27,153 nucleotides of DNA, from the IMG/VR virus record IMGVR_UViG_3300036401_000008, positions 1 to 27,153 of that record; one strand, given 5' to 3'. Positions within the stretch are counted from its first letter, which is position 1, and every line of letters begins with the position of its first letter. Source of the stretch: a virus. Position numbers and translations under genes: made by a program. Shown here piece after piece: positions 1,798 through 25,830 of the stretch. The notes beneath the pieces are model-generated. The model made no database searches and was not told where the DNA came from. It saw only the letters and a list, made by a program, of their open reading frames with translations.

Positions 1798-2107
1798 GCT
1801 CCGGTTCCTTGGCTAGCTTCTTGGTGATGTGTACCGTTCGCGCATTGTCTTCGAGGCCTATGATCTCGTGCGGAAAGCCAGCGAAAGTATCAAGCACGGT
1901 GCCGCTCTCGTGTATGCCGTTCTCCACGGCGCCGTTCTCCATTATGATCCTGATCAGTACGCGCCCTCTGGCAACGATGATGATATGAGACGTTGCATCA
2001 TCGTGATTGTGCATCGGCAAGCAGTCACCCGCCTTTTGATAGTCGTACATCAGCAACTGTAGGTCGCCTATCTTGGCTCCGTTGATGACCGGCATGCCCA
2101 TACTCAT
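1769..2107 (-). CDS. Small cupin-domain protein
   Basis: A 112-residue single-domain cupin. Motif 1 is at residues 33-50 (HNHDDATSH...ARG) and motif 2 at about 74-92 (TFAGFPHEIIGLEDNAR). Candidate metal ligands are H33, H35 and H80. The glutamate usual in motif 1 is absent and H41 may replace it. The ATG at 2107 is preferred over the in-frame GTG at 2134 because it overlaps the oxygenase stop as TAATG and has GGAG about 8 nt upstream. Coupling directly behind a 2OG-Fe(II) oxygenase suggests the two work together, for example in modifying a fibre protein. Small cupins also occur in phages without such a partner, so a separate role, sugar-related or structural, remains possible. Confidence 0.85.
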   Translation of the reverse strand: MSMGMPVINGAKIGDLQLLMYDYQKAGDCLPMHNHDDATSHIIIVARGRVLIRIIMENGAVENGIHESGTVLDTFAGFPHEIIGLEDNARTVHITKKLAKEPEHENGNSNPV

Positions 2108-2676
2108 TAGCGCAACTCCGGTCCCGCCACCCACATAACGAGTGATCGCCGCACACCTTTCGTCACCGGCCTCACCTCGTGAACGATCTCAGAGCGAAAG
2201 AACGTCGCCATGCCCCGCATACGCGGCATGGTAACTGGTGTGAGGTTGTGCGGGTACAGCCACAACTCGCCGCCCTCGTAGTCTTCAGGTTTCGACAACT
2301 GCAGGCTCATGCTCAGCTTGCGGTGATGATCGGTGTACTTGCCGTATGTACAGTCTGCATGAGAGCAGTAGCGGCCACCGTCGTATTCGGTCAGTTGTAG
2401 GTTTTCGATGGTCGTTAACTCCAGGTGGAAGTGCTTGTTGACTTGGTAGACCGCATCATCGAGAGCGGTGTAGAGCCACTCAATCTCAGGCTTAGGCATC
2501 AACCAATCGATTGTGCTGTCCCTCTGCTCAGGATTAACCTTGCCAGCGTCAACCTTGCCAGCGTGTTTATTGTCGCTCCACAGCGCATCAATCTTGTCCA
2601 ACTCCTCCGCAGCGAACACTTCAGACGAAGCAACCCACGCTTGGCGCGGATACGTTTGTAGCTTCCACATAGACAT
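2107..2676 (-). CDS. 2OG-Fe(II) oxygenase, prolyl 4-hydroxylase-like
   Basis: A 189-residue protein with the full signature of the prolyl 4-hydroxylase branch of 2-oxoglutarate/Fe(II) dioxygenases: iron ligands H106-x-D108 (YCSHADCTYG) and H166 (IVHEVRPV), and the 2OG-binding arginine R176 in KGVRRSLVMWV. Supporting blocks are LSMSLQLS (121-128) and YEGGELWLYP (133-142). Such enzymes hydroxylate proline or other side chains, using O2 and 2-oxoglutarate and releasing succinate and CO2. It has no signal peptide, so it would act in the host cytoplasm during infection. It directly follows two collagen-like genes, which are the obvious candidate substrates. The ribosome binding site is weak, so translation probably depends on coupling to the preceding gene, whose stop is 2 nt away. 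A five-residue tandem duplication (AGKVDAGKV) lies at residues 39-47. Confidence 0.9.
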   Translation of the reverse strand: MSMWKLQTYPRQAWVASSEVFAAEELDKIDALWSDNKHAGKVDAGKVNPEQRDSTIDWLMPKPEIEWLYTALDDAVYQVNKHFHLELTTIENLQLTEYDGGRYCSHADCTYGKYTDHHRKLSMSLQLSKPEDYEGGELWLYPHNLTPVTMPRMRGMATFFRSEIVHEVRPVTKGVRRSLVMWVAGPELR

Positions 2677-2678
2677 GT

Positions 2679-3272
2679 TCAGCTTGTCGTCACTTGCACG
2701 TAGCCAGGACTACCGGCACTTCCAGGACTACCCCAACCGCCAGTGCCACCAGGACTGCCTGGATTGCCATTCTGAATTGGCACACCAGGGCTTGTATGCC
2801 AGTAACCAGGGGCACCTGCTGCACCGGCAGCACCATACATGCCAGCAGCTCCAGCAGTGCCAGCAGCGCCTACAACAACGCTGACACCTGTGCGTGGTTG
2901 AAGCGTGCTGCTGCTGCGTTGATACGTTGCGGTACCGGCAGCTTGGAATGATGATGCACCACCAGGACCACCAGCACCGCCTGGGCCACCAGCACCTCCT
3001 GCACCGCCACATCCGGGAGGAACATAGTATGCCGCCATACCCGGCCAGTACTGACAATTAGCGGGCGTCCACACGCCAACTCCGCAAGAGCAGTTGTAAA
3101 ATATAGGATAGCTACCGGGTGTCCCGGGTGACCCGGGTGATCCTGGTGTTCCAGATGATCCTGGTGTGCCGTTCACAACATTGGCGGCGACGGCACGATA
3201 ATTATTCGGCACGATAAATGACGCAGGGCCATTGATCATGCTTGTCCCAGTTATGATGGCGAAGCCTCTCAT
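2679..3272 (-). CDS. Gly-X-Y-rich collagen-like structural protein
   Basis: A 197-residue protein built from four short Gly-X-Y blocks at about residues 35-55, 89-106, 135-158 and 169-192, separated by non-repetitive segments. Within the blocks I count twelve prolines, all at Y (GTP, GSP, GGP, GAP, GNP) and none at X. Four cysteines (C61, C63, C73, C88) sit in the segment between blocks 1 and 2, ending next to block 2. The N-terminus ([19 protein letters not shown]) is non-repetitive. The gene overlaps the collagen-like fibre gene as TGATG and is followed 2 nt later by the prolyl-hydroxylase-like gene. It could be a collagen-like triple helix or, because the blocks are very Gly-rich, a polyglycine-II sandwich like the tips of T-even gp38 adhesins. 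A fibre-tip role is inferred. Confidence 0.8.
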   Translation of the reverse strand: MRGFAIITGTSMINGPASFIVPNNYRAVAANVVNGTPGSSGTPGSPGSPGTPGSYPIFYNCSCGVGVWTPANCQYWPGMAAYYVPPGCGGAGGAGGPGGAGGPGGASSFQAAGTATYQRSSSTLQPRTGVSVVVGAAGTAGAAGMYGAAGAAGAPGYWHTSPGVPIQNGNPGSPGGTGGWGSPGSAGSPGYVQVTTS

Positions 3273-4795
3273 CAGCCCAGGCTCGCGTTGACCGCCACAA
3301 GTTGCAGCAGTGTGTGGGTTGCATCAAAGACAGAATAGCTCATCACGCTCCACTTGTTGGCGATGGTGCCGATAGTGAACGCCGTATCACCGTCGCAGCA
3401 GTAGCCGTTCGATGTCAGACCGCTGAGCGTGCGGCTGCCGGTGGCGTCCTGTTTGATGGCGATCAGCCCATCGGTGCCGACAACCGGCGTCTGCAAATAG
3501 CCAAGGGTGCGATTGCCGCCCATTGAGTTAAGCCTGAAGTTGCGGCCAATTCCCCCACTTGAACCGCCCGGCACAACAATGGTGGCGGCGTCCGTCAGCA
3601 ATACCCATGAGGTGTCGGGCGGAGGCGGCACGTTGGCGGCAACCTTGGCGTCCACATACTGCTTGGTTGCGGCGTGAAGAAGCGCCGTGGGATCTGCACC
3701 CAGCGTTAAAAAACCGGACATGGTATCGCCGGTCTTGCTCACGAAATTGTTGATGTCGGGCTGCGGGCAGGCGACAATCCACTGGCCGGGCGGGCCGGAC
3801 GGGTCAATGTAAAACACATAAAGCAGCCCGCTATCACTCTCCCACCAAAGCGTGCCGGGCAGCGGATTGGCCGGGGCAACGTCCATGATGACAATGCCGG
3901 AACCACCCGTGGTTTTGTCATCGACATATTTTTTGGTGGCGCTGTGCAAATCTATTGTTGGTGCGCCGGACAGCGTCAGCAGGCCGGTCATGACGCCACC
4001 GGACTTGGCGACCAGCGAGGTGTCGCTGGGGTGAACGTGGTCTTCCCGCGAATAGGCTGTCGCGGCGCCCGGCGCAGCCACTCCGTTCATCACCGGGTTG
4101 ACGGTGCTGGGCGCCAGACCAAGGTTGGCGCGGGCAGTGGCGTAATTTGTCAAACCGGCAAGGTTCTCCGACTTGAGCATGTCACCGGAGCCGGAACCGG
4201 CTGGTCCGGTTGCTCCGGTGGGTCCGGTAGGTCCAGGGCTGCCCTGTGGCCCGGGGGGTCCGGTCAATCCAAGGGGTCCGGTCTGCCCAGGCACCCCCTG
4301 GTCACCCGGGTCACCCTTGTCCCCCTTGTCGCCCTTGACGCCCTGCGCCCCAGTCGATCCAGAGGGGCCAGCAGCGCCGGTCGAGCCGGATGCCCCGACT
4401 GGCCCCTGGGGTCCAGGCGGTCCTGGAGGCCCAACGGCGCCAGCAGGCCCAGGCCCGCCAGACATATCAACGTATCGCTTGGTGGCCGCCTGCAAATCCA
4501 ATGATGGATCGCTAGCCAATTCCAGCACGCCGGTCATGACGCCGCCAGACAGGGCCAGCCGTGACGTGTCGCTGGGGTGGATATGATCCTCTCTGGAGAA
4601 CTGAAACGAGATGCCCGGCAGGCCCGGCGTTTGATCCATTAGCGGGATAAGCAAACCGGCGGCGCCGGGCGCCGCCACGATGCCGCCATAAGTCGTCCAC
4701 TTCTCGCCGTCCCAGGTGTACTGGGGCACACCGGATATTCCCGGCGAGGGATACCTGTCTCCGATTGCTGGCGATGCCGGAAAATCGAAGGCCAT
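3272..4795 (-). CDS. Collagen-like tail fibre protein
   Basis: A 507-residue modular fibre. Order: N-terminal module (1-38) shared with the fibre at 524-1168; [12 protein letters not shown] motif (67-78); fibre repeat SGGVMTG...RYVD (83-110); 29 uninterrupted Gly-X-Y triplets (116-202) including [15 protein letters not shown]; a second [12 protein letters not shown] (249-260); two more fibre repeats (265-292, 355-382) flanking a [13 protein letters not shown] module (315-327) also found in the 410-residue fibre; then a beta-rich C-terminal head (395-507). Collagen-like shafts form trimeric stalks in several phages, and the KGD triplets resemble the charge pairs that stabilise bacterial collagens. 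It probably forms a trimeric fibre with a receptor-binding head. It has six Y-position prolines and precedes a prolyl-hydroxylase-like gene. Confidence 0.93.
3650..3733 (-). repeat. Fibre repeat module, copy 5
   Basis: It encodes TGDTMSG...KQYVD (residues 355-382) of the collagen-like fibre. The unit is (T/S)G(D/G)xMTGxLxLxxxPTxxLxAATKxYVD. Confidence 0.85.
3920..4003 (-). repeat. Fibre repeat module, copy 4
   Basis: It encodes SGGVMTG...KKYVD (residues 265-292) of the collagen-like fibre, directly after a [12 protein letters not shown] motif. Confidence 0.85.
4190..4450 (-). repeat. Collagen-like Gly-X-Y tract, 29 triplets
   Basis: This segment encodes residues 116-202 of the fibre as unbroken Gly-X-Y triplets. 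Proline is at X in twelve triplets and at Y in six (GPP three times, GDP, GVP, GSP). The DNA shows the corresponding 9-base quasi-repeats rich in GGTCC/GGCCC. Such tracts can change length by slippage in multiples of 9 bases without breaking the frame. Confidence 0.95.
4466..4549 (-). repeat. Fibre repeat module, copy 3
   Basis: It encodes SGGVMTG...KRYVD (residues 83-110) of the collagen-like fibre, immediately before the collagen-like tract and after a [12 protein letters not shown] motif. Confidence 0.85.
4682..4795 (-). repeat. N-terminal fibre attachment module, copy 1
   Basis: It encodes residues 1-38 of the collagen-like fibre and is clearly paralogous to the first 38 codons of the fibre at 524-1168; the identical peptide [10 protein letters not shown] closes both. 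Conservation of only the N-terminus with diverged remainders is the usual sign of a shared virion-attachment domain. Confidence 0.85.
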
Positions 4796-17241: not shown

Positions 17242-18261
17242 CTAGGCCGCCGGGTTGCTGTCGTAGAAGCGCCAGTTGAACATCGGATTGACCTGGGTCA
17301 GCTCACCCATCCACCCGATAAACTGCGCAATGGCGTCCTTATCAATTGGCATTTGGCCTTCGCCCTCGAACAGCTTGTCGAAGTTTCTGTTCGGGTGATA
17401 GCGAATGCGCAACGTGTCGGTGTCGATGCCAAAGGTCGTATTGGCAGGCATGTTTGAGCCAATGCCGCCATCGAGGACGATCTCCGCCCGCTTGCCGCCG
17501 CCGATATACTCCAGCGACGAGAACCCCAACTTACCGAGAGAAGTCTCGTTGGTTTGCCGCTGGATCGCCACGGTGGCCGCGTCGTAGGCCGCGTAGTGTT
17601 CCGGCGACATGATCAGCACGTCGGCGTGGTCCTTGCCGCGTGACTGTTTTCCCATCACCACGCTGAGCATCGGCCTGACGGTGGTGGCATTGACCTGGGT
17701 GCCAAGTGCCGGAGCCATGCTCTGGGCGTCGTAGGCCTTGGTCTGCCAGATCACGTTGGCACGATCGATGCCGCCGTACAGGCCGGAGTTGGTGACGATG
17801 GGGATTGCGGTGGCGAGCCCGGTGAGCTGCTTGCCGCCGTTGGCGGTGCCGTCGCTGTAGATGGCGGCGTCCATGGCGTCTTCGAGGGCGCGTTCGGCGG
17901 CCTCGATGTAGCTGTCGTAGACGTCCATCAGCTGGCTTTCGCCTTCGTTGTTCAAGATCTCCTGCATGGAGAGGATGACGGGCACCACGACCATCTTCGG
18001 ATCGAAGTAAGCGTCATTGAACAGATCGATGGCTGGGTTGAGCAGCTGATCGTAGCCGCTGTACCACTGCGGGACGTTCTTCGCGATCTGCAGGGTCTGG
18101 CGAATGCGCGGACCAGAGTAGGTCTGCCACAAGCCTTTCCGGCGCAGCACCGAGAGCAGTGCGTTGTTGTTGGAGACGAGATCCTGATAGCTGGAGGAGC
18201 GATCCTCCAGCGTCATCGACAAGATTTGCTGATAGGCAGCATTAGCGTTGATGTTAGGCAT
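17242..18261 (-). CDS. Major capsid protein
   Basis: A 339-residue protein with the features of podoviral coat proteins of the HK97-like fold: an N-terminal helical region (MPNINANAAYQQILSMTLED...LRRKGLWQTY), a long strand and spine helix (VVVPVILSMQEILNNEG...YDSYIEAAERALEDAMDAAIYSDGT), followed by GLATAIP, then a MGKQSRGKDHADVLIMSP segment and a C-terminal YIGGGKRAEIVLDGGIG...FNWRFYDSNPAA. The 'ALEDAMDAAIYSDGTANGGKQLTGL' type sequence is a strong coat signature. It lies directly after the scaffold gene. The ribosome binding site is weak for a highly expressed gene. The only sizeable intergenic gap of the window follows it. Confidence 0.93.
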   Translation of the reverse strand: MPNINANAAYQQILSMTLEDRSSSYQDLVSNNNALLSVLRRKGLWQTYSGPRIRQTLQIAKNVPQWYSGYDQLLNPAIDLFNDAYFDPKMVVVPVILSMQEILNNEGESQLMDVYDSYIEAAERALEDAMDAAIYSDGTANGGKQLTGLATAIPIVTNSGLYGGIDRANVIWQTKAYDAQSMAPALGTQVNATTVRPMLSVVMGKQSRGKDHADVLIMSPEHYAAYDAATVAIQRQTNETSLGKLGFSSLEYIGGGKRAEIVLDGGIGSNMPANTTFGIDTDTLRIRYHPNRNFDKLFEGEGQMPIDKDAIAQFIGWMGELTQVNPMFNWRFYDSNPAA

Positions 18262-18276
18262 GGCATGTCCGGTCTG

Positions 18277-19506
18277 TTAGACGCTGCCATTCACCCGCTT
18301 CATCGCGTTCTGGATGGCGTCGCGTCGGCCAATCTTGATGTCGCTCTTGCGTGGCTGGCCGTTTGAGGGTCCGCCGGATGGTGCGCCAGAGATCGACTTG
18401 TTTGATCGGGTCTGAGCCGGTGTGCCGGTGCGGGTCTGAGCCGCTTGAGGTGGTCGGAGGCGATAGGCGCGCTGGTATGCAGTCTCGAGATCAAACCCTA
18501 GCTGCACTTCCTGCTCTATCAAGTCCCCCAGTTCATCGAACCCTGGATGCGCGTCGGCGAACTGGTCGACGGCGGACCGGGTGTTCGTGAAGACCTTCTC
18601 ATGGTGCATCTGTTGCACGTTTTGCGCAAGTGAGGCGACCATCTGGTGCAGCTGGCCAATCTGCTGGCTCTGCGCCTGCTGGCCATTCTGCGCCTGCACC
18701 ATTTTGTGCTGATCGGGGGTCTGATTGAGAATGTGATAAGCGACGTCGCGCAGCCCAATCTTGTGGCCGTCGCGGGTCGTCAGGTTCAGATTGTTGACGA
18801 TGACGTCGAGGCCGCCGACAAGATCTGACCGCAGCTTTTGCTCCATCCCGACATAATTGGTCAGCGCCCGCTGCAGCGTGGTGCCCTGCTGAGACGCCAT
18901 CTGGTGGAAGTTGCGGATGGTGTTCATCTCGTCGTGGTCGCCGCGATACTTGCGATAGGCGCCCTCGAACTCCTGCTGCATGCGGTGAACTTCGCCGCGC
19001 ACGCTCTCCGGCGCCGCCGCCCACTCCTGCTTGCCGCGCTCCGACATGCGCTGCGGCGGATCGCGGTATGGCGTGCCTTCCGGCAACTGGCGCGCTGGCT
19101 GGCCGGGCTGCTGCGCCTGCCCTGGCGCACGCTGCTCGCCGGGCTGCTGCTGCGCATCGGGCGGCCTAGCGAACCGGCCCTGCTCCCTATGCTGTTGTAA
19201 AACCTTGGGTTTTTCCTTCTCCATCGCCTCGGGCGGATTGTTGTCACCCATGCCGCGTTTGGCGGTCTTCGGCTTGTCGTCGGTGTTGGCCTTGTCGAAG
19301 GCCCGCTTGATGGCATCGCGCCGGTTGTCTGCCTTGCCGTGGCCACGATCGGCTTCGCCGGGTGGCTTCTCCGGCGCCTGCGATCCCAGCGGTGCGGGAG
19401 CGTTGGTCGGGTTCTGATTGATCACCACTTCGTTGGAAGCTGGTGCTGGTGCGGAAGGCGTGGATGCTGGTGCTGGTGTCGGTTGACTAATACCTACGTC
19501 TGACAT
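18277..19506 (-). CDS. Scaffolding protein
   Basis: A 409-residue protein before the coat gene, with the composition of a scaffold: a Pro/Ala/Gln-rich disordered N-terminus (1-130), an amphipathic helical middle (about 165-325, including GKQEWAAAPESVRGEVHRMQQEFEG broken over several helices and many Gln), and a basic C-terminus ending RRDAIQNAMKRVNGSV. A basic C-terminal helix is the coat-binding part in P22-type scaffolds. The same RRDAI motif is also near the N-terminus (62-70, RRDAIKRAF). PDAHPGFDELGDLIE-like text near 315-335 resembles the 'HPGFDEL' region of other phage scaffolds. It would build the procapsid and leave or be cut before packaging. Confidence 0.88.
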   Translation of the reverse strand: MSDVGISQPTPAPASTPSAPAPASNEVVINQNPTNAPAPLGSQAPEKPPGEADRGHGKADNRRDAIKRAFDKANTDDKPKTAKRGMGDNNPPEAMEKEKPKVLQQHREQGRFARPPDAQQQPGEQRAPGQAQQPGQPARQLPEGTPYRDPPQRMSERGKQEWAAAPESVRGEVHRMQQEFEGAYRKYRGDHDEMNTIRNFHQMASQQGTTLQRALTNYVGMEQKLRSDLVGGLDVIVNNLNLTTRDGHKIGLRDVAYHILNQTPDQHKMVQAQNGQQAQSQQIGQLHQMVASLAQNVQQMHHEKVFTNTRSAVDQFADAHPGFDELGDLIEQEVQLGFDLETAYQRAYRLRPPQAAQTRTGTPAQTRSNKSISGAPSGGPSNGQPRKSDIKIGRRDAIQNAMKRVNGSV

Positions 19507-19509
19507 GGG

Positions 19510-19836
19510 CTACCCCCTGGTGTGGGGCCGGTGACCGGCCTGATACATTTCGACGGCTTTCTTGATGGTCTGCCTACGCGCCGACTTCACCACCTTGTCT
19601 GCGGTGGCACGCACTTTCGGCTTAGGCTTCTCGGTGCCGACTTCAGTAAGGCCCAACGACTTACCGACAGCTCTGTATTGAGATTTTGACGTGTAGAAGC
19701 GCCCGTCGACCTGTTCGGTCTCGGGCATGATGTCTGATATAACGTGAGGACATGGCAGTGATGAGCGCGCCGGAGGTGTTAGCTCCCGCCTGACGCGCCA
19801 CCGTCCTGGTTCAATCTCGATCAGTTCTAGTGCCAC
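19510..19836 (-). CDS. Small conserved phage protein upstream of scaffold
   Basis: A 108-residue protein with a GTG start. The N-terminal pattern ELIEIEPGRWRVRRE...LPCPHVISD and the middle DGRFYTSKSQYRAVGKSLGLTEVG recur in small proteins that lie between portal and capsid genes of podoviruses; no function is established to my knowledge. The C-terminus contains ARRQTIKKAVEMYQ (86-99), a weak relative of the RRDAI motif in the scaffold. Its stop is 3 nt before the scaffold ATG, with AGGGGG between, so the two are probably co-translated. A capsid assembly role is inferred from position. Confidence 0.8.
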   Translation of the reverse strand: MALELIEIEPGRWRVRRELTPPARSSLPCPHVISDIMPETEQVDGRFYTSKSQYRAVGKSLGLTEVGTEKPKPKVRATADKVVKSARRQTIKKAVEMYQAGHRPHTRG

Positions 19837-19839
19837 GCG

Positions 19840-19855
19840 CCTCTAATATCAGAGG
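19840..19855 (-). promoter_or_regulatory. Short inverted repeat over the ribosome binding site of the next gene
   Basis: CCTCT-AATATC-AGAGG is a 5-bp inverted repeat in the 49-nt gap 19837-19885. One arm contains the AGAGG that serves as the ribosome binding site for the GTG at 19836. It could limit initiation. The stem is short and may be chance. Confidence 0.25.
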
Positions 19856-19885
19856 TGCGGTGGCTAACACTACTGCGTAGGTCTT

Positions 19886-20200
19886 TTACTTGCGCTTCTT
19901 TGCAGACCGCTCGTCGTCATCGTCGTCGTGCTTGGTCTGACCGGGCCGCGCTCCAGGCTGCCCTGGCTTTGACCCAGGCTGTTGCCCAGGCTGCTGTCCA
20001 GGGTTCGGATTGGGCTGCCCAGGGTTCTGGCCAGGATGCTGACCCGGCTGGTTTGGCTGGTTCTGTGCCTGCGCCTGCGTCTGCGTCTGCGCAGTGTTCG
20101 AACCCGGCGGCTCGTTGATGCTCTGCAGATCCGGCGGGTGGTTCGGCGACAAGCCCTGCTTGTCGCTGTGGGCCTGATCCTGGTCTTGCTTCTGGTTCAT
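19886..20200 (-). CDS. Low-complexity protein with SINEP motif and PGQ repeats
   Basis: A 104-residue protein with no fold. Residues 1-26 are Gln/Asp-rich, SINEPPGS is at 27-34, residues 35-50 are Gln/Ala/Thr-rich, residues 53-90 are PGQx repeats of roughly four residues (QPGQHPGQNPGQ, GQQPGQQPG), and the end is five Asp followed by a basic SAKKRK tail. The motif is shared with the two genes before it. The ATG overlaps the preceding gene as ATGA. It may be a flexible, multivalent tether in the virion; the sequence shows only the motif and composition. Confidence 0.72.
   Translation of the reverse strand: MNQKQDQDQAHSDKQGLSPNHPPDLQSINEPPGSNTAQTQTQAQAQNQPNQPGQHPGQNPGQPNPNPGQQPGQQPGSKPGQPGARPGQTKHDDDDDERSAKKRK
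20099..20122 (-). repeat. SINEPPGS motif copy A
   Basis: It encodes SINEPPGS, residues 27-34 of the 104-residue protein. A 20-base core (20100-20119) is identical to 20312-20331. Confidence 0.9.
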
Positions 20201-20403
20201 TTGTGCTTCCTTGGCTTTCCGTTCCCATTACGCTTTGCCTTCGTGGGCTTTGCGGCCCGCGCCCGTGGCTTGGCCTTGACGCTCTTGCGTCGCGGCTTTG
20301 GCGCCACCTCTGAACCCGGCGGCTCGTTGATACTCGGCAGCGCCCCTTCGGGGAGCTGCATTTGCTGCGCAGGCTGCGCAGGCTGTACTTGCGGGTCACC
20401 CAT
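20197..20403 (-). CDS. Small protein with SINEP motif and basic tail
   Basis: A 68-residue protein. A Pro/Gln-rich N-terminus (PQVQPAQPAQQMQ) leads to SINEPPGS at residues 24-31, followed by a strongly basic tail (about 37-68, PRRKSVKAKPRARAAKPTKAK and onward), which could bind DNA or acidic surfaces. An in-frame TTG at 20439 would give a longer form, but the ATG at 20403 has AGAGGTG about 6 nt upstream and is preferred. Its stop overlaps the next ATG as ATGA. No known family. Confidence 0.7.
   Translation of the reverse strand: MGDPQVQPAQPAQQMQLPEGALPSINEPPGSEVAPKPRRKSVKAKPRARAAKPTKAKRNGNGKPRKHK
20311..20334 (-). repeat. SINEPPGS motif copy B
   Basis: It encodes SINEPPGS, residues 24-31 of the 68-residue protein. 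It shares a 20-base identical core with copy A; the serine codons differ (AGT against AGC, TCA against TCG). Confidence 0.9.
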
Positions 20404-20435
20404 GTTTTCACCTCTGTGCGCGTGATGCGCAGCGG

Positions 20436-20837
20436 TCAACGTCTGGATGATGATTTGGTTGTGTCGCCCTCTGGCGCATTGAAAGTAAATTCCACCTCGT
20501 TGGACATTACGTCAGCATTCCTGACCGCGACCGGCACAACGTCTGGCCCGTGCCACACGCTCATGTCGATGGCGGTCGACAGTCGCCCGTCGTCCTCTAG
20601 CGTCGTCGGCTCGTCGTAGTCGGCGAACACAATGATGCTGCCGGTAAAGAAGTTGGTGCCAGAGACATAGATGCGGAAGCCCGCACTGCCCAACACACAT
20701 TTGCTAGGCTCCAGGCCTGCCACTGTCGGCTTGGGGATGTCGCCCGCTGGAAACTTTCCAGGCTCGTTGATGCTGCGCGGCGTAACCATGGAGGTTCGCC
20801 CGGGTCCAGTCGGTTCATTGATGCTCTTGATGCCCAT
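20436..20837 (-). CDS. IPT/TIG-like protein with two SINEP motifs
   Basis: A 133-residue protein. The first 30 residues hold SINEP twice (5-9 and 22-26) in a Pro/Gly-rich context. Residues 36-120 fit an IPT/TIG immunoglobulin-like domain: PTVAGLEPSKCVLGSAGFRIYVSGTNFFTGSIIVFA, then the closing strands VVPVAVRNADVMSNEVEFTF. Such domains are common on phage surfaces as decorations. The C-terminus is hydrophilic. The gene overlaps the preceding TIG gene as TAATG. I infer a virion surface or decoration protein; whether it sits on the head or the tail is unknown. Confidence 0.78.
   Translation of the reverse strand: MGIKSINEPTGPGRTSMVTPRSINEPGKFPAGDIPKPTVAGLEPSKCVLGSAGFRIYVSGTNFFTGSIIVFADYDEPTTLEDDGRLSTAIDMSVWHGPDVVPVAVRNADVMSNEVEFTFNAPEGDTTKSSSRR
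20760..20774 (-). repeat. SINEP motif copy C
   Basis: It encodes SINEP, residues 22-26 of the 133-residue TIG-like protein, followed by GKFP rather than PG. Confidence 0.85.
20811..20825 (-). repeat. SINEP motif copy D
   Basis: It encodes SINEP, residues 5-9 of the same protein. Asn and Glu use AAT and GAA where the other three copies use AAC and GAG, so the peptide is kept while codons vary. Confidence 0.85.
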
Positions 20838-21397
20838 TAGGTGAATGTCCAGTTGGAGACAGCTGTCGACACGCCGCCGGTCATGACGGTGACGACCTGT
20901 GTGCCTGCGGTCGCCTTCTTCGGCGCATTGGCGACGGTGAGCGACGTCGCCGAAACCCAGACCGTGCTTTGCGGGTTGCCATTGATGTAGACCTGGGAGG
21001 CCCGGGTAAAGCCGGTGCCGGTGACGGTGAGCGCCACGTTGCCGGGGCCAGACGCTGGCGAGGCTGGCGCAAGCCCGGTGATGGTCGCCGCCGCCGAACC
21101 GTTCAGCGACGAGGCGTGCGAGGCGTTCGGTGTCGCGGTGAAGTTGCCGAGATCCGACACAGTAACGGTCGGAGCGTAGGAGAGGCTGCCCGGCGCGGTG
21201 TACACCACCTCGGTGCCTGCGCCCTCGGAGGGGTTGCCGCCTGCGCTTGGCGCAGCGAACGCCGTCAGCGTGCCAGCCGTGCCGTCATCGATCGGCGTCA
21301 GGCCTGCGGTGGTCGGCGGTCGCATGCCGACTTGCCCGGTGAAGTTGGTTGGCGGTGTCGGGCCGTCCGGCGTCACTGTCAGTGGTGATTGAGCCAT
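20837..21397 (-). CDS. IPT/TIG-domain protein, possible capsid decoration
   Basis: A 186-residue protein. The N-terminal half is Pro/Thr/Gly-rich (TPDGPTPPTNFTGQVG) and beta-like (TEVVYTAPGSLSYAPTVTVSDLGNF). Residues about 107-186 form an IPT/TIG domain: ATITGLAPASPASGPGNVAL, then TVTGTGFTRASQVYINGN, ending TQVVTVMTGGVSTAVSNWTF. TIG domains have an immunoglobulin-like fold and occur on phage virions as decorations or adhesins. Its ATG has AGGAG 6 nt upstream. It is followed by a second TIG-like gene in TAATG overlap, so the two are probably made together. Confidence 0.85.
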   Translation of the reverse strand: MAQSPLTVTPDGPTPPTNFTGQVGMRPPTTAGLTPIDDGTAGTLTAFAAPSAGGNPSEGAGTEVVYTAPGSLSYAPTVTVSDLGNFTATPNASHASSLNGSAAATITGLAPASPASGPGNVALTVTGTGFTRASQVYINGNPQSTVWVSATSLTVANAPKKATAGTQVVTVMTGGVSTAVSNWTFT

Positions 21398-21406
21398 GGT
21401 CGTCTC

Positions 21407-22969
21407 CTACTGTTGATAATTGTCCTGGGCGGCCAGTGCGCCAAACCCTGGCGCTGCTGCAGCACTCCCCCACAGCTTTGGGTTCCTGTACATCCATTCG
21501 GAAATGCTGTCGGCAACACGCGGCGTCACAAGCTGCGTCCTGGGTAACCCTACCGGCATTCGCGACGAATAGTAATCGGGACGTTCGGCTACTTTTACCG
21601 GGTCGCCATACTTCATCAAATTGGCGTGCAGGTCCGGTCCAGCAACATGCCAGGGCACAGATCCGCCAAATGTCCTCGGCTCACCACGAGCAGCGACCGC
21701 TGTTGGATATGTCGAATGCAACGATTGCTCGACACGACCAAGCCCCGGCTCGAACGGCGAGATGGTGAGCCCAACAGATCCCGTTGGCGTGTTGCGCAGA
21801 TGCGGATTGGTAATAGCGTAACGCAACTCACCGAGATCAGGGAAGCCAGCGTCTCGCGCCACCTCACTGTCCATTGCCTTCACCACTCTGCCGCGCTCAG
21901 TACCTGTTGCCGTGTTGCTGAGCCAATCGTGCAGCTTTGGCGAACGCCAGCCAGGAAAGCCTTCAACGCCCTCCATCGCCTTATTGATGAATGATGCGCC
22001 AGCGTTTGATATGCTGGACTGCCGGGCGAGATCGTAGGCCGGTAACGCCATCTGCTTCGAGCTGTCCACAGAATGCTTAGCCATGGCCTGATACATCAGC
22101 ACCGGCTCACGGCCACGCGCCAGCACCTCGTTGCCCAGGTTAATCAGACCAGACGTCTGCGGCGAGGCGTTAGCCCACATACGCCGTGCATCTTCTGACA
22201 TCCCGGCTATTGGTTTGTCGGCCTGCGAGAACGCATAGTCGGCGCCGCCCTCCATCGGCTGCGGACGTGTCAGCTTGGTGCCGCCGACGCTTTGCAGCAC
22301 ACCGCCTGCTGTACTGCGGTCACCAGCAGCAAAGATCAGCTCCTTGCCAATCAGCGACTGTGGATCGATCACCGGACGCTCGAACTTCGGCTCACCAGTG
22401 ATCTGATATTCCATCTCGTTCACTGGCTTGCCGGTGCGCAAGCCGGAGAAGCCGTGAAATTTATCGGTCTTCAAAAATGGTGAGCCCTCGTTGTACTTCA
22501 CGATGTTGGTGGCGACACTTGGCGTGTTCCCAGCCTGCCCTGGCTCAAACCCGGCGAGCGTATCGCGGCTTCGCCCCACCCTGCCGCCAGCCATACCCAG
22601 CGCGCCCTCCGGCGCTAAACCAAACCCAGCACCCGTGACATTGAACGCCGTACCAGCCGCGTAGTCCGCTGCTGCGCGACGCGGGTCATAGTCGGTACTC
22701 TGCTCTGTCGCGCCCTGCGTTGCCGGAAACTCATTGGCGGAGTAGTCGGCCATGGTCTGCATCAGACCACGCGCCTTATTGACCGGCTGCGTTACCAGCG
22801 CGTTCACCACCGGACCGACGATCTGCCCTGGCGCTTCAGTGCGCCCACCTGTCGGCTGCACCGACTGACGGGTGCGGGCCGCGAACGCCTCGAAGGCGTC
22901 CTGCGCCGCCTGCTGCTCGTCCAGCGGATAGCTGTCGGTAGCGGCCAAGCTGCCCATCTGGTCAGGCAT
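21407..22969 (-). CDS. Unrecognised 520-residue protein between portal and capsid genes
   Basis: I do not recognise this protein. Residues 1-60 are helical (LDEQQAAQDAFEAFAARTRQ), followed by LVTQPVNKARGLMQTMADYSANE. The centre has a mixed alpha/beta look (GKELIFAAGDRSTAGGVLQSVGG; ADYAFSQADKPIAGMSEDARRMWANA), then LGNEVLARGREPVLMYQAMAKHSVDSSKQMALPAYDLAR split over helices, and ELRYAITNPHLRNTPTGSVGLTI. It ends with a Gly/Ala segment (WGSAAAAPGFGALAAQDN). The length and the helix-rich start suit an internal virion or cargo protein, or an enzyme carried in the head. It has GGGAGG about 10 nt before the ATG. Its position before the scaffold rather than with the other internal proteins is unusual. 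Confidence 0.8.
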   Translation of the reverse strand: MPDQMGSLAATDSYPLDEQQAAQDAFEAFAARTRQSVQPTGGRTEAPGQIVGPVVNALVTQPVNKARGLMQTMADYSANEFPATQGATEQSTDYDPRRAAADYAAGTAFNVTGAGFGLAPEGALGMAGGRVGRSRDTLAGFEPGQAGNTPSVATNIVKYNEGSPFLKTDKFHGFSGLRTGKPVNEMEYQITGEPKFERPVIDPQSLIGKELIFAAGDRSTAGGVLQSVGGTKLTRPQPMEGGADYAFSQADKPIAGMSEDARRMWANASPQTSGLINLGNEVLARGREPVLMYQAMAKHSVDSSKQMALPAYDLARQSSISNAGASFINKAMEGVEGFPGWRSPKLHDWLSNTATGTERGRVVKAMDSEVARDAGFPDLGELRYAITNPHLRNTPTGSVGLTISPFEPGLGRVEQSLHSTYPTAVAARGEPRTFGGSVPWHVAGPDLHANLMKYGDPVKVAERPDYYSSRMPVGLPRTQLVTPRVADSISEWMYRNPKLWGSAAAAPGFGALAAQDNYQQ

Positions 22970-22972
22970 CGA

Positions 22973-23497
22973 CTACATTCCTCCCAAGATCATCTTGTCG
23001 AGGTCATCCTTGCTAAGGCCACTGAGATCATCAGACGGTGACAGGCCATAATGATCCTGCAAAGCCTGATTGGCGTCACGCTCCGCCTTGCGTTCGGCAA
23101 TCTCGCCGCCTTCCCGCTGGGTCAGATAATCGGTGAACTTGTCGACCGGCGTCGCCTGCAACGGATGCGGCATTGGCGGCGAGCCCTGCAGGCGCTCGTC
23201 CAGCGATTGCGAGAAGCCGTACTTGTCGGGCTGGCGGAATGTCATATCGCCAGCGCCACGCTGCATCTGCATGGCCTGCTCCATCACGTCGGACCAGCTG
23301 CTCGGTGCCTGTTGGGCACCCTCAACAATGACTGGCTCCTGCGTCTGGAAGCTGTGCGGGCCGGTTGGCCGCCGGTCTTCGATGTTCGTCGAGATGGCGG
23401 GCATCCTGGCCAGCGCCTGCTGCTCCAGGCCGCCAGTGATCGGCAGCGCATACTGGTCGCGCCGCGCCAGATTGCCCATCACCCATCTGCCGGGCAT
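22973..23497 (-). CDS. Unrecognised 174-residue protein after the portal
   Basis: It starts in TGATG overlap with the portal stop. The N-terminus (RWVMGNLARRDQYALPITGGLEQQALARMP) is followed by a polar middle with DVMEQAMQMQRGAG and FRQPDKYGFSQSLDERLQG, then a charged helix (FTDYLTQREGGEIAERKAERDANQALQDHYG) and a C-terminal LSPSDDLSGLSKDDLDKMILGGM. Charged and helical, it could be an assembly factor or a small internal protein. No family is recognised; coupling to the portal implies a structural or assembly role. Confidence 0.78.
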   Translation of the reverse strand: MPGRWVMGNLARRDQYALPITGGLEQQALARMPAISTNIEDRRPTGPHSFQTQEPVIVEGAQQAPSSWSDVMEQAMQMQRGAGDMTFRQPDKYGFSQSLDERLQGSPPMPHPLQATPVDKFTDYLTQREGGEIAERKAERDANQALQDHYGLSPSDDLSGLSKDDLDKMILGGM

Positions 23498-25830
23498 CAG
23501 TGCCCTCCGCTGCCGTTGGGTCCAAACCCGTTCTGCAGCTTCAGCGCCGCCGCAGCCGACGCATGCTGCGCCTTCTCGGCGTTCTGTGCCCGCTGGTCTA
23601 TCGCCTTCTGCATGTCGGCGCTGGCCTTGAAGCGGGCGATCTCCATCTCCTGCGCCTTGCCCGCCATGTCGGCTTGGTGCGCCTCGCGGCTCTCCATCGC
23701 CTTCTGGTTCTGCACCGCGATCTTGGCTTGGTCGGACTGGATCGTGCCCTGCTGCTTGCTCTGCGCGATCTGGATCTGAGTGCTCAGCTCCATCTGCTTG
23801 TGATCGTCGGCCTGCTTCATCTTGGCCGCCTCCAGCGCACCGTCCTGCTGGTTCTTCGTCATCGCCGCCTGCTGCTTCATGTTCTCGATCTGCAGCGCGG
23901 TCTTGGCGTTGATCTGGGCCGGGTTGTTGTCCTGCTGCGGCTGCTGACCCTTCTGCTCCATCTGCTGGACGAGGTCATCGATAGCGCCATCGAGCGTGCG
24001 ACCGGCGCGGTATGGCGCGACTGCGAACTTCAGCAGCTCACCGCAGAACGATGCGGTCTGCGGCTCCGCCGTGATCATCATCGACAATTGCTGGAGCAGC
24101 GGACCTAGCACCGAGATGAACTCGCCACGGCGTTTCTTCTCCGCGTTCTCGTCCTGCTGGATCGTGCTGTCCGTTTCGATGTCCAGCACGAATGATTTGG
24201 TACGACTGCCCTTGATGAACTGAAGCACCTGTTCGATGGTCGGCTTTTGCGCCAGCTTCTGGATCGCGTGGTTGGCACCTTCCTGCACCTGTTGAAATTG
24301 CTGCATGGCCTGCTGGGCCGCCTGCGGGTTCTGCTGACCCATCTGCTGGATCTGCGGTGACTGCATCAGCATCTGCGCCTGCTGTTGCTGCTGCTGCATC
24401 TGCTGCTGGATCTTCTCGATCTGCTTTCGGATCAGATCCTGGGTCGGCAGCTGGGTCTGCGACATCGCGATGATGGTTTCAGGCTTGAACTTCTCGGTGA
24501 TGATCTCGGCGGTGATCTCCACCATGTCGCGGGCGACGCGCACCATCTCACGCTGTTTGTCGCGCACGCGAACAGAGCCATAGTCGGTCTTCAGCTCCTG
24601 GGCGCCCAGCGTCTCGTTGGGATCGGTCTCGCCGCGCATGATGTCGGACAGGCCGGTGATGGCGTAGATGTCATCAATGACTTGCTTGCGCAGCGCCACC
24701 AGCGCCGTGATGGTCTGCGCGATCATGTCGATCGGCAGCCAGATGATGACTTCCTTGCTGCCGCCGAAGGCCGCCCAGTTGCTGATGGGGACGAGTACTC
24801 GTCCCGGCGTCTTGATCTTGATGGCGGCCTGGATAGCGTCGCTCAACTCGGCACCGCCAGCCGGGTAGAAGCCCTTGACCTCCAGCGCATCACTGAGCGC
24901 ATGAATGCGGCCCGTCAGCGTGTTGATCTCATCGAGCTGGTCCTGGTACTGCAGCGCGTCCGGCACCGGCACCAGTGAGCCACGCTGCGTCGTGCCGTAG
25001 GCGGGCTTCGGGCAAGGGAAATAGTTTTGCAAGTCGAGGTGCGGATCGTCCTCGTCCAGGATGTCTTCGCAGCCCTTGGCGACCCAGATCACCCGCTCGC
25101 TGTTCTTGTCCCAGATCTCCCAGAACTTGGCGCGCTCGCGGTTGTCGGCGCCGCCAACGGAGCGGCTCTCCTTGTCGACGCTGTACTCGGCCTTCTGGTA
25201 TTCGTCGCCGCTGCTGTCGTGGAAACGCTTGCGGGCCTGCGTCCTGGTCAGGTAGCTCGCGCCAGCCACCCACCACACCTCGGTCCAATTGCGTGAGATG
25301 CTGTGCAGGAAGTCGCGCCTATTCTTGAACTCCAGGCAGACCTTCTCGTGCGAGTGATAGGTGTCGGCGTCGTCGTCCTTCTCTTCGTACCGGCACCACG
25401 GCACGCCGCGACCGTTCAGCGCCAGATCGTCGCGCACCAGGATCATGATGTCATCGATGCGGGCCAGATCGAACGCCACGATACAGCACCGCTCGATTAT
25501 CTCGGATGACTGCTGCGGCACCGGACGCCGGTCCTTGAACTTGGGGACGACGACCGGGATCGGCGGCTTGGCGTAGATGCTGGGCTTGATGACTTCCATG
25601 TTCGCCCAAAACATTTGAAACTGTTTGTCGCGGGCGAGGCCGGTCAGCCGGTCCAGGCTGGCATACAGCTTGTCGATCTTGTCGCAGTGATCGTTCCAAT
25701 TCTTGTAGGCGTCTTCGCTCTCCTCCAGGATGTTCAGCCACGCCTTGGCTGATCCCTTGGGCTGCGCCGCTGGCGTGTACTCCAGATCGTCGTGGCGAAG
25801 ATCCTCATCGTTCGGTTTGTCTTCAGCCAT
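23497..25830 (-). CDS. Portal protein
   Basis: A 777-residue protein of P22 gp1-like size and style. The N-terminal helical region (about 25-90, AWLNILEESEDAYKNWNDHCDKIDKLYA) is followed by FQMFWANMEVIKPSIYAKPPIPVVVPKFKDR, a segment typical of podoviral portals. The stem and crown follow (GVPWCRYEE, LPIDMIAQTITALVALRKQVIDDIYAITGLSDIMRGETDPNETLGAQELK across 365-420). Residues 470-520 are extremely Gln-rich (QQQMQQQQQQAQ). The C-terminal 150 residues are a long helical Gln/Lys/Ala region, as in the portal barrel. Twelve copies would form the DNA entry vertex. ATG 25830 has GGGTGG upstream and overlaps the preceding small gene by 8 bases. Confidence 0.92.
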   Translation of the reverse strand: MAEDKPNDEDLRHDDLEYTPAAQPKGSAKAWLNILEESEDAYKNWNDHCDKIDKLYASLDRLTGLARDKQFQMFWANMEVIKPSIYAKPPIPVVVPKFKDRRPVPQQSSEIIERCCIVAFDLARIDDIMILVRDDLALNGRGVPWCRYEEKDDDADTYHSHEKVCLEFKNRRDFLHSISRNWTEVWWVAGASYLTRTQARKRFHDSSGDEYQKAEYSVDKESRSVGGADNRERAKFWEIWDKNSERVIWVAKGCEDILDEDDPHLDLQNYFPCPKPAYGTTQRGSLVPVPDALQYQDQLDEINTLTGRIHALSDALEVKGFYPAGGAELSDAIQAAIKIKTPGRVLVPISNWAAFGGSKEVIIWLPIDMIAQTITALVALRKQVIDDIYAITGLSDIMRGETDPNETLGAQELKTDYGSVRVRDKQREMVRVARDMVEITAEIITEKFKPETIIAMSQTQLPTQDLIRKQIEKIQQQMQQQQQQAQMLMQSPQIQQMGQQNPQAAQQAMQQFQQVQEGANHAIQKLAQKPTIEQVLQFIKGSRTKSFVLDIETDSTIQQDENAEKKRRGEFISVLGPLLQQLSMMITAEPQTASFCGELLKFAVAPYRAGRTLDGAIDDLVQQMEQKGQQPQQDNNPAQINAKTALQIENMKQQAAMTKNQQDGALEAAKMKQADDHKQMELSTQIQIAQSKQQGTIQSDQAKIAVQNQKAMESREAHQADMAGKAQEMEIARFKASADMQKAIDQRAQNAEKAQHASAAAALKLQNGFGPNGSGGH

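Follow-up and report, generated by a model that had tools for sequence, protein, structure and literature searches.

Two short peptides recur in exchangeable proteins encoded between the portal and scaffold genes of an uncultured phage group

The IMG/VR virus record IMGVR_UViG_3300036401_000008 (27,153 bases, here called the window) encodes seven small or medium-sized open reading frames (ORFs) between its portal gene and a gene for a scaffold-type protein. In this interval and in its counterparts in related phages two short peptides recur, SINEP (or SINEPPGS) in proteins encoded after the first TIG-domain gene (TIG1) and MGxLAxxDxY in proteins encoded between portal and TIG1, a region that we term slot A. 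Both peptides are nearly exclusive to their places, are predicted to be flexible and are present in carriers that have no other detectable similarity to each other. We consider it slightly more probable than not that the interval is a modular virion-head accessory locus and that the peptides are docking or address tags, one for head cargo and one for capsid-associated proteins.

Gene content of the portal-to-scaffold interval

On the minus strand of the window, the large terminase gene is followed by an 84-residue ORF, the portal gene, the seven ORFs (g174, g520, g186, g133, g80, g104 and g108), the scaffold-type gene and the gene for the major capsid protein (MCP), as listed here together with the two peptides. 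The position and the count of seven genes agree with the original prediction, which had been made from the sequence alone.

23497..25830, minus strand: portal protein, left border of the block (PHROG 12082, E 3.9e-181)
22973..23497, minus strand: g174, slot A accessory protein with N-terminal tag
23450..23479, minus strand: tag MGNLARRDQY, g174 residues 7-16
21407..22969, minus strand: g520, slot A accessory protein with disordered N-terminal third and tags at both ends
22928..22957, minus strand: tag MGSLAATDSY, g520 residues 5-14
21416..21445, minus strand: tag FGALAAQDNY, g520 residues 509-518, two residues from the end
20837..21397, minus strand: g186 (TIG1), TIG domain in the C-terminal part (PF01833, E 3.7e-07)
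20436..20837, minus strand: g133 (TIG2), which carries SINEP twice, has a TIG domain spanning residues 31-120 and closes with a short basic stretch
20811..20825, minus strand: SINEP copy 1, g133 residues 5-9
20760..20774, minus strand: SINEP copy 2, g133 residues 22-26; it is this copy that lines up across all 39 selected TIG2 rows
20197..20403 (ATG), or start at TTG 20439, minus strand: g80, SINEPPGS followed by a Lys/Arg-rich tail
20320..20334, minus strand: SINEP copy 3, in g80
19886..20200, minus strand: g104, low-complexity protein with SINEPPGS and C-terminus ERSAKKRK
20108..20122, minus strand: SINEP copy 4, in g104
19510..19836, minus strand: g108, small core protein before the scaffold in all intervals examined (PHROG 21669, E 5.3e-08)
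18277..19506, minus strand: scaffold-type protein, right border (PHROG 25516 'virion structural protein', E 2.2e-16); its putative scaffold role is assigned from gene position
17242-18261, minus strand: MCP

The third-position GC content of the block ORFs is 0.65-0.80. Two near-identical records, L003 and L004, retain all seven ORFs in intact form, and L003 encodes an identical g520 protein. The eight junctions from portal to scaffold measure -1, 3, 9, -1, 32 (with the ATG start of g80), -4, 49 and 3 nucleotides; coupling is therefore common but not continuous, and the earlier description of the block as translationally coupled throughout was overstated.

For comparison, portal searches yielded the IMG/VR loci L002-L090 as well as L091-L093, which come from three named phages; in each of them portal, TIG, g108, scaffold and MCP genes were located with hidden Markov models (HMMs) built here. 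Together with loci added from a motif scan, 85 complete portal-to-scaffold intervals were obtained, of which 59 remained after de-duplication: 56 from a TIG clade, comprising the window and 55 related IMG/VR phages, and three named outgroups. Genes were called with a simple dynamic-programming script, and some Arg-rich ORFs that are retained in the counts of 351 and 78 given below are probably spurious.

Within the TIG clade, g108 and matches to both the TIG1-type and the TIG2-type HMM are present in 56/56 intervals, with two or more TIG genes in 45 and a single one in 11. The g520 family occurs in 15 intervals, a g80-like match in 11 (indicative only, as the protein is of low complexity), g174 in two (the window and L049) and g104 in one, and interval length ranges from 1,420 to 9,845 bases with a median of about 4.6 kb. 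Because gene contents differ from interval to interval around g108 and the TIG genes, the locus is a hot spot at which genes are exchanged one at a time while the core stays the same; these counts reject gain or loss of the block as one unit, an option that the original prediction had put up for checking. Nor do the 56 intervals show the same seven genes in all relatives, the outcome named beforehand as speaking against an accessory block. Six of the genes are indeed accessory, whereas g108 belongs to the core, because portal, g108, scaffold and MCP form the minimum seen among relatives: Myxococcus phage Mx8 encodes portal, g108-like, scaffold-like and MCP proteins in the same order as here, but with nothing between portal and the g108-like gene. 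In P22-type order the scaffold gene directly follows the portal gene; the phage's own relatives are the better baseline.

Homologues of g108 are found in RHph_I3_18, ppBjS10J-1 and Mwe-JY13 and, more weakly, in p46 of Mx8, and RHph_I3_18 also provides the closest named portal match, at 48%. The hosts of the closest named phages are Rhizobium and Bradyrhizobium. A tblastn search of phage records with TIG2 of L139, made in order to find an isolated phage, gave no match, and MCP and portal searches of genome contigs for a prophage or host gave no relative. Among the variable genes, g174 has no PHROG or Pfam match and few relatives (HMM matches in nine loci, mostly near-copies), while relatives of g80 are encoded in L020, L027, L033 and L046.

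SINEP and its carriers

SINEP had been noticed in two proteins of the block; in fact three proteins carry it, g133 twice in its N-terminal part and g80 and g104 once each. SINEP(PGS) is present in 56/56 de-duplicated intervals, once in 36, twice in 15, three times in four and four times in the window. When the pattern [STA][IVL]NEP was searched in six frames of 92 loci, 95 sites lay inside the interval and none in the approximately 0.93 Mb outside it; in the 39 loci without a scaffold match, everything downstream of the portal was counted as inside, and this count, like that over 2.19 Mb reported below for the second peptide, includes near-identical records. All 50 complete TIG-bearing intervals among the 92 loci carry the pattern. 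Likewise, a SINEP-type DNA pattern occurs in 30/30 records of 37-46 kb, with 46 sites compared with one for the reversed pattern. One of these 46 sites (G012:13527, with a Thr codon) lies off the block on the other strand, and two at record starts (G011:219 and G007:3125) are only presumed to belong to it. IMG/VR was also scanned for exact matches to SINEPPG with serine encoded by AGY; of the 98 stretches returned, 91 are new loci. The head genes of the group are present in 85 of these 91 (all except L105, L121, L142, L144, L145 and L173). Of these 85, 82 have the portal upstream of the site and/or g108, scaffold or MCP downstream of it, the other three having only TIG neighbours. SINEP also ranks first among 5-mers that recur in at least two different ORFs of one interval (11/56 intervals, compared with 5 for the next independent 5-mer). 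In the three named outgroup loci L091-L093, both TIG1 and SINEP are missing.

In 64 distinct contexts, Ser, Asn, Glu and Pro are fixed save for one Ala, and Ile is replaced by Val in five. The codons beneath them vary synonymously, with five for Ser (AGC, AGT, TCG, TCC and TCA), four for Pro and two each for Asn, Glu and Ile, in proportions near those of core genes. The conservation of SINEP is thus at the level of protein and not of DNA. A literature search, which covers text only, found no paper with the exact strings SINEPPGS or MGALAAQD.

Most SINEP ORFs are TIG2 proteins, in which a 39-row alignment displays a flexible N-terminal part, SINEP, a TIG domain and a basic end; the rows were chosen for NEP, and the invariance at these three positions is partly due to this selection, from which the counts for the 92 loci and the 56 intervals are free. 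In L078, L086 and L090 SINEP is located in other ORFs, and in 9/11 one-TIG intervals TIG1 is immediately followed by a SINEP protein of 51-113 residues that lacks a TIG domain. L148 encodes a 591-residue protein that has SINEP ten residues into the chain, matches GH43 (E 9.8e-11) and lacks the basic end. Overall, 61/68 SINEP ORFs have at least three Lys, Arg or His among the last six residues, compared with 38/351 other interval ORFs.

Two genes of the block had been called TIG-like. This assignment holds for g186, which scores 30.5 bits against the IPT/TIG family PF01833 (gathering cut-off 20.9); g133 remains below the cut-off at 14.1 bits, although its modelled fold is that of a TIG domain. 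As judged from the model, residues 31-120 adopt this fold with a predicted local distance difference test score (pLDDT) of about 93-96 per block, the best Foldseek matches being the TIG domains of EBF3, EBF1 and CAMTA1 (E from 3.8e-05), while the SINEP region is predicted to be unstructured (pLDDT 52-65).

Among 33 slot B/C proteins, Pfam searches returned Laminin_G_3 in two and single matches to GH43, sortilin/BNR, HutD and the Acb2/Tad1 hairpin family. The last is encoded in an interval of a relative at L152:8765-9016 (+) (PF24729, E 1.3e-11), and L013:8244-8465 and L134:8397-8645 look similar by eye; proteins of this family are cyclic-nucleotide sponges that act against cyclic-oligonucleotide-based antiphage signalling systems (CBASS). 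The ends of two SINEP proteins, L101:4585-4971 (+) and L129:5701-6024 (-), resemble Rho_N, with E values of 0.034 and 0.028 that do not reach the cut-off.

MGxLAxxDxY and the slot A proteins

The second repeated peptide, which the original prediction had missed, was first seen as the common start of slot A proteins in relatives; in the window g174 carries it once and g520 twice, once at each end. With a relaxed pattern in six frames of 2.19 Mb, 138 sites fall between portal and TIG1 and one elsewhere, in L043, where no TIG gene was found and a distance rule defined the border. Exact matches to MGALAAQDxY occur in 25 stretches of IMG/VR. All 15 that represent new loci are located downstream of the portal and/or upstream of TIG1, three of them after the portal with no TIG gene in reach; nine of the other ten had already been placed in slot A, and the tenth (L160) is without a portal in its locus.

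Among 78 slot A ORFs of at least 150 residues the tag occupies the C-end in 37, the N-end in 37, both in 24 and either in 50, whereas 0.35 (C) and 0.63 (N) would be expected after shuffling. Of 195 other interval proteins, none has it at the C-end and one at the N-end, and of 203 core ORFs none has it at the C-end. After masking of the tag, g174, g520, the DUF7178 protein of L020, proteins related to ADP-ribosyltransferases (ART) and a 739-residue protein of L027 display no cross-group similarity at E<1e-3. The Pfam families detected in 76 slot A proteins at E 0.01 or better are DUF7178 (7), ART-PolyVal (6) and LPD23 (3), besides single matches to an amidase, a metallopeptidase-like family (DUF6782) and others; relative to the curated cut-off, the ART match of L098 is above, and those of L053 and L116 are below.

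In the model of g520 a folded part spans about 180-500, with most pLDDT values at about 90 or above between residues 190 and 450 or so, and both tags lie in the low-confidence ends. A Foldseek search with this fold returned nothing at E 0.001. On a second look at those chains, 10/11 rows were YTH domains (Z 4.8-6.8) and the eleventh a McrB N-domain (3.9); the YTH alignment is below a trustworthy level, and a modified-base reader fold in g520 is only a lead.

Several untagged slot A proteins share an end pattern in RW or KW (like QPG.M.FGR.V....RW), perhaps an end signal in its own right:

L152:4026-7139
L082:14324-17434
L169:3211-5877
L005:9293-10462
L080:7366-8289
L098:11110-11967 (-)
L073:13487-14839

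Two peptides as candidate address tags

We propose that an accessory locus sits between the portal gene and the g108-scaffold-MCP core, and that its genes would be exchangeable because their products bear short address peptides. MGxLAxxDxY, at one or both flexible ends, would dock slot A proteins to some component of head assembly, which would lead to their packaging and to their delivery along with the DNA. In proteins made after TIG1, SINEP(PGS) lies in a segment predicted to be flexible, and the C-terminus is usually basic; here the peptide would serve for docking to the capsid or else to TIG1, the carriers acting as decoration or cement and having a TIG domain, a glycan-active domain or nothing attached. 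The tagged proteins would accordingly be constituents of the virion, and their placement inside or outside the shell, their partners and their functions are putative. The surface reading of SINEP is based on the TIG domains, on a SINEP-tagged GH43 protein and on LamG-type and BNR-type proteins, which fit a surface, and the head-cargo reading of MGxLAxxDxY on ART-PolyVal-like proteins with terminal tags. Capsid decoration and an internal cargo, as first suggested for the block, remain the best reading. A more specific version is possible, if less likely than not: a two-address system in one operon. Exchangeable effectors would be directed into the head by MGxLAxxDxY at their ends and later injected, exchangeable display or cement proteins would be directed to the capsid by SINEP, and the phage could re-equip its particle through exchange of entire genes while the core genes around them stay fixed.

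Several observations weigh against the proposal. In single-linkage clustering of their middles, a looser comparison than the masked search, 44/50 tagged slot A proteins fall into one cluster, and shared ancestry may explain part of the tag conservation; by the same procedure 45 SINEP proteins form one TIG cluster. No tag is present in 28/78 slot A proteins, a stricter tag pattern is absent from 17/56 intervals, and 7/68 SINEP proteins lack the basic end. Both g520 of the window and its L003 copy are without a Pfam effector domain. Furthermore, the proteins of the locus suggest opposite locations, since GH43 and LamG domains point outside and histone-like Lys tails, together with the weak Rho_N match (E 0.03, below the cut-off), point to DNA contact inside; the basic tails suggest contact either with DNA or with an acidic capsid surface.

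Comparison with known systems places the locus close to two of them. The capsid targeting sequence (CTS) of phage T4 directs the internal proteins and Alt to the head. Here, too, a short peptide is common to otherwise different proteins, with the reservation that most tagged slot A proteins join one loose cluster. In contrast to the T4 CTS, the peptide is a different one, stands at either or both ends and is accompanied by a second tag class, SINEP; moreover, no prohead protease family was found in the 32 ORFs of one relative, G006. Alt is an ADP-ribosyltransferase that is packaged in the head and injected, according to an excerpt of PMC5512222, and in our set ART-like proteins carry MGxLAxxDxY. 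The same excerpt (Iyer et al. 2017) describes phage polyvalent proteins as thought to be packaged. In relatives of the window, slot A likewise encodes ART-PolyVal, LPD23 and metallopeptidase-like DUF6782 proteins beside virion genes, but g174 and g520 of the window itself match none of these domains, and a terminal tag is not part of that excerpt's description.

Decoration proteins such as T5 pb10 and T4 Hoc offer the second parallel. T5 pb10 binds the capsid with its N-terminal domain and exposes an Ig-like domain to the solvent (PMC5292684, in excerpt), and the block similarly appears to encode a small protein that combines a candidate capsid-side segment with an Ig-type domain. However, pb10 binds through a folded helical domain, whereas the candidate anchor here is a five-residue motif predicted to be unstructured; SINEP is found without an Ig domain as well, and structural matches to T4 Hoc entries are weak (E 1.1e-3 and 1.3e-2). 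The locus appears to work in the manner of T4 head targeting, in which several proteins use a common short peptide, and of Ig-type decoration, but it cannot at present be assigned to either.

The strongest alternative, somewhat unlikely in our estimate, is an ordinary variable decoration or accessory locus in which the peptides are the conserved ends of two old families that swap middle domains, with a structural or folding role and not as transferable tags. The single-linkage clusters of both sets agree with it, as does the position of small SINEP proteins at the TIG2 place in most one-TIG intervals, where they may be shortened TIG2 genes. Yet SINEP occurs four times in three adjacent genes of the window, the peptide is kept where the remainder does not align, and GH43 and ART proteins bear the tags. 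Alternatively, SINEP proteins could be internal DNA-organising head proteins, with the T4 internal proteins as a presumed precedent: SINEP would anchor them to the inner shell or scaffold, and their basic tail would bind the packaged DNA. The prevalence of Lys/Arg-rich tails and the weak Rho_N-like ends favour this model, but a TIG or GH43 domain has no obvious use inside a head and the Rho_N matches remain below the cut-off; we regard it as unlikely. Even less credence is due to the proposal that SINEP proteins plug into TIG1 as an adaptor and not into the capsid: the genes are adjacent, TIG1 and SINEP co-occur in 56/56 intervals and both are missing in the outgroups, but co-occurrence does not show contact. 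A prohead protease processing site is highly improbable and was rejected. Its sole support is the resemblance of INE followed by Pro to the I/L-x-E preference of T4 gp21, and it is opposed by the invariant Pro after Glu in the 39 selected TIG2 rows and by the absence of any prohead protease family from the block proteins and from the 32 ORFs of the 42.7 kb relative G006. Least credible, and rejected on account of the codon variation beneath fixed amino acids, is conservation of the SINEP stretch as DNA, be it a regulatory site or a recombination hot spot: Ser is encoded by AGC in 45/64 distinct contexts compared with 36% in core genes, but the 92 loci contain no copy on the other strand or off the block.

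Apart from the two peptides, a third module of about 60 residues was observed (GMPVVTVASGGLPVV..PVTEA.NG.G.AVTKV..GMPVVFV), which makes up a protein by itself or forms the beginning of a larger one; in Microcystis phage Mwe-JY13 the gene after the portal starts similarly. The module is encoded at:

L020:14994-15197
L153:6288-6470 (-)
L078:14093-15001
L086:15806-17599
L148:5139-5888
L092:2343-3254

Elsewhere in the window, among the genes at 2107-2676 (-), 2679-3272 (-) and 3272-4795 (-), a 2OG-Fe(II) oxygenase gene (PF13640, E 6.1e-14) adjoins two genes for collagen-type repeat proteins (PF01391, E 2.2e-04, below the cut-off, and 5.1e-14). A phage enzyme that would hydroxylate the phage's own collagen-like fibre is worth a test.

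Few systems are known by which phages choose the accessory proteins that go into or onto their particles. In a large group of uncultured soil phages, two sets of exchangeable proteins are each distinguished by a short peptide with its own place in the locus. If the peptides are tags, any gene in the slot would be predictable as encoding a particle protein, unknown proteins could be catalogued according to the tag that they carry, and the peptides may become a means of filling harmless phage shells with proteins of choice.

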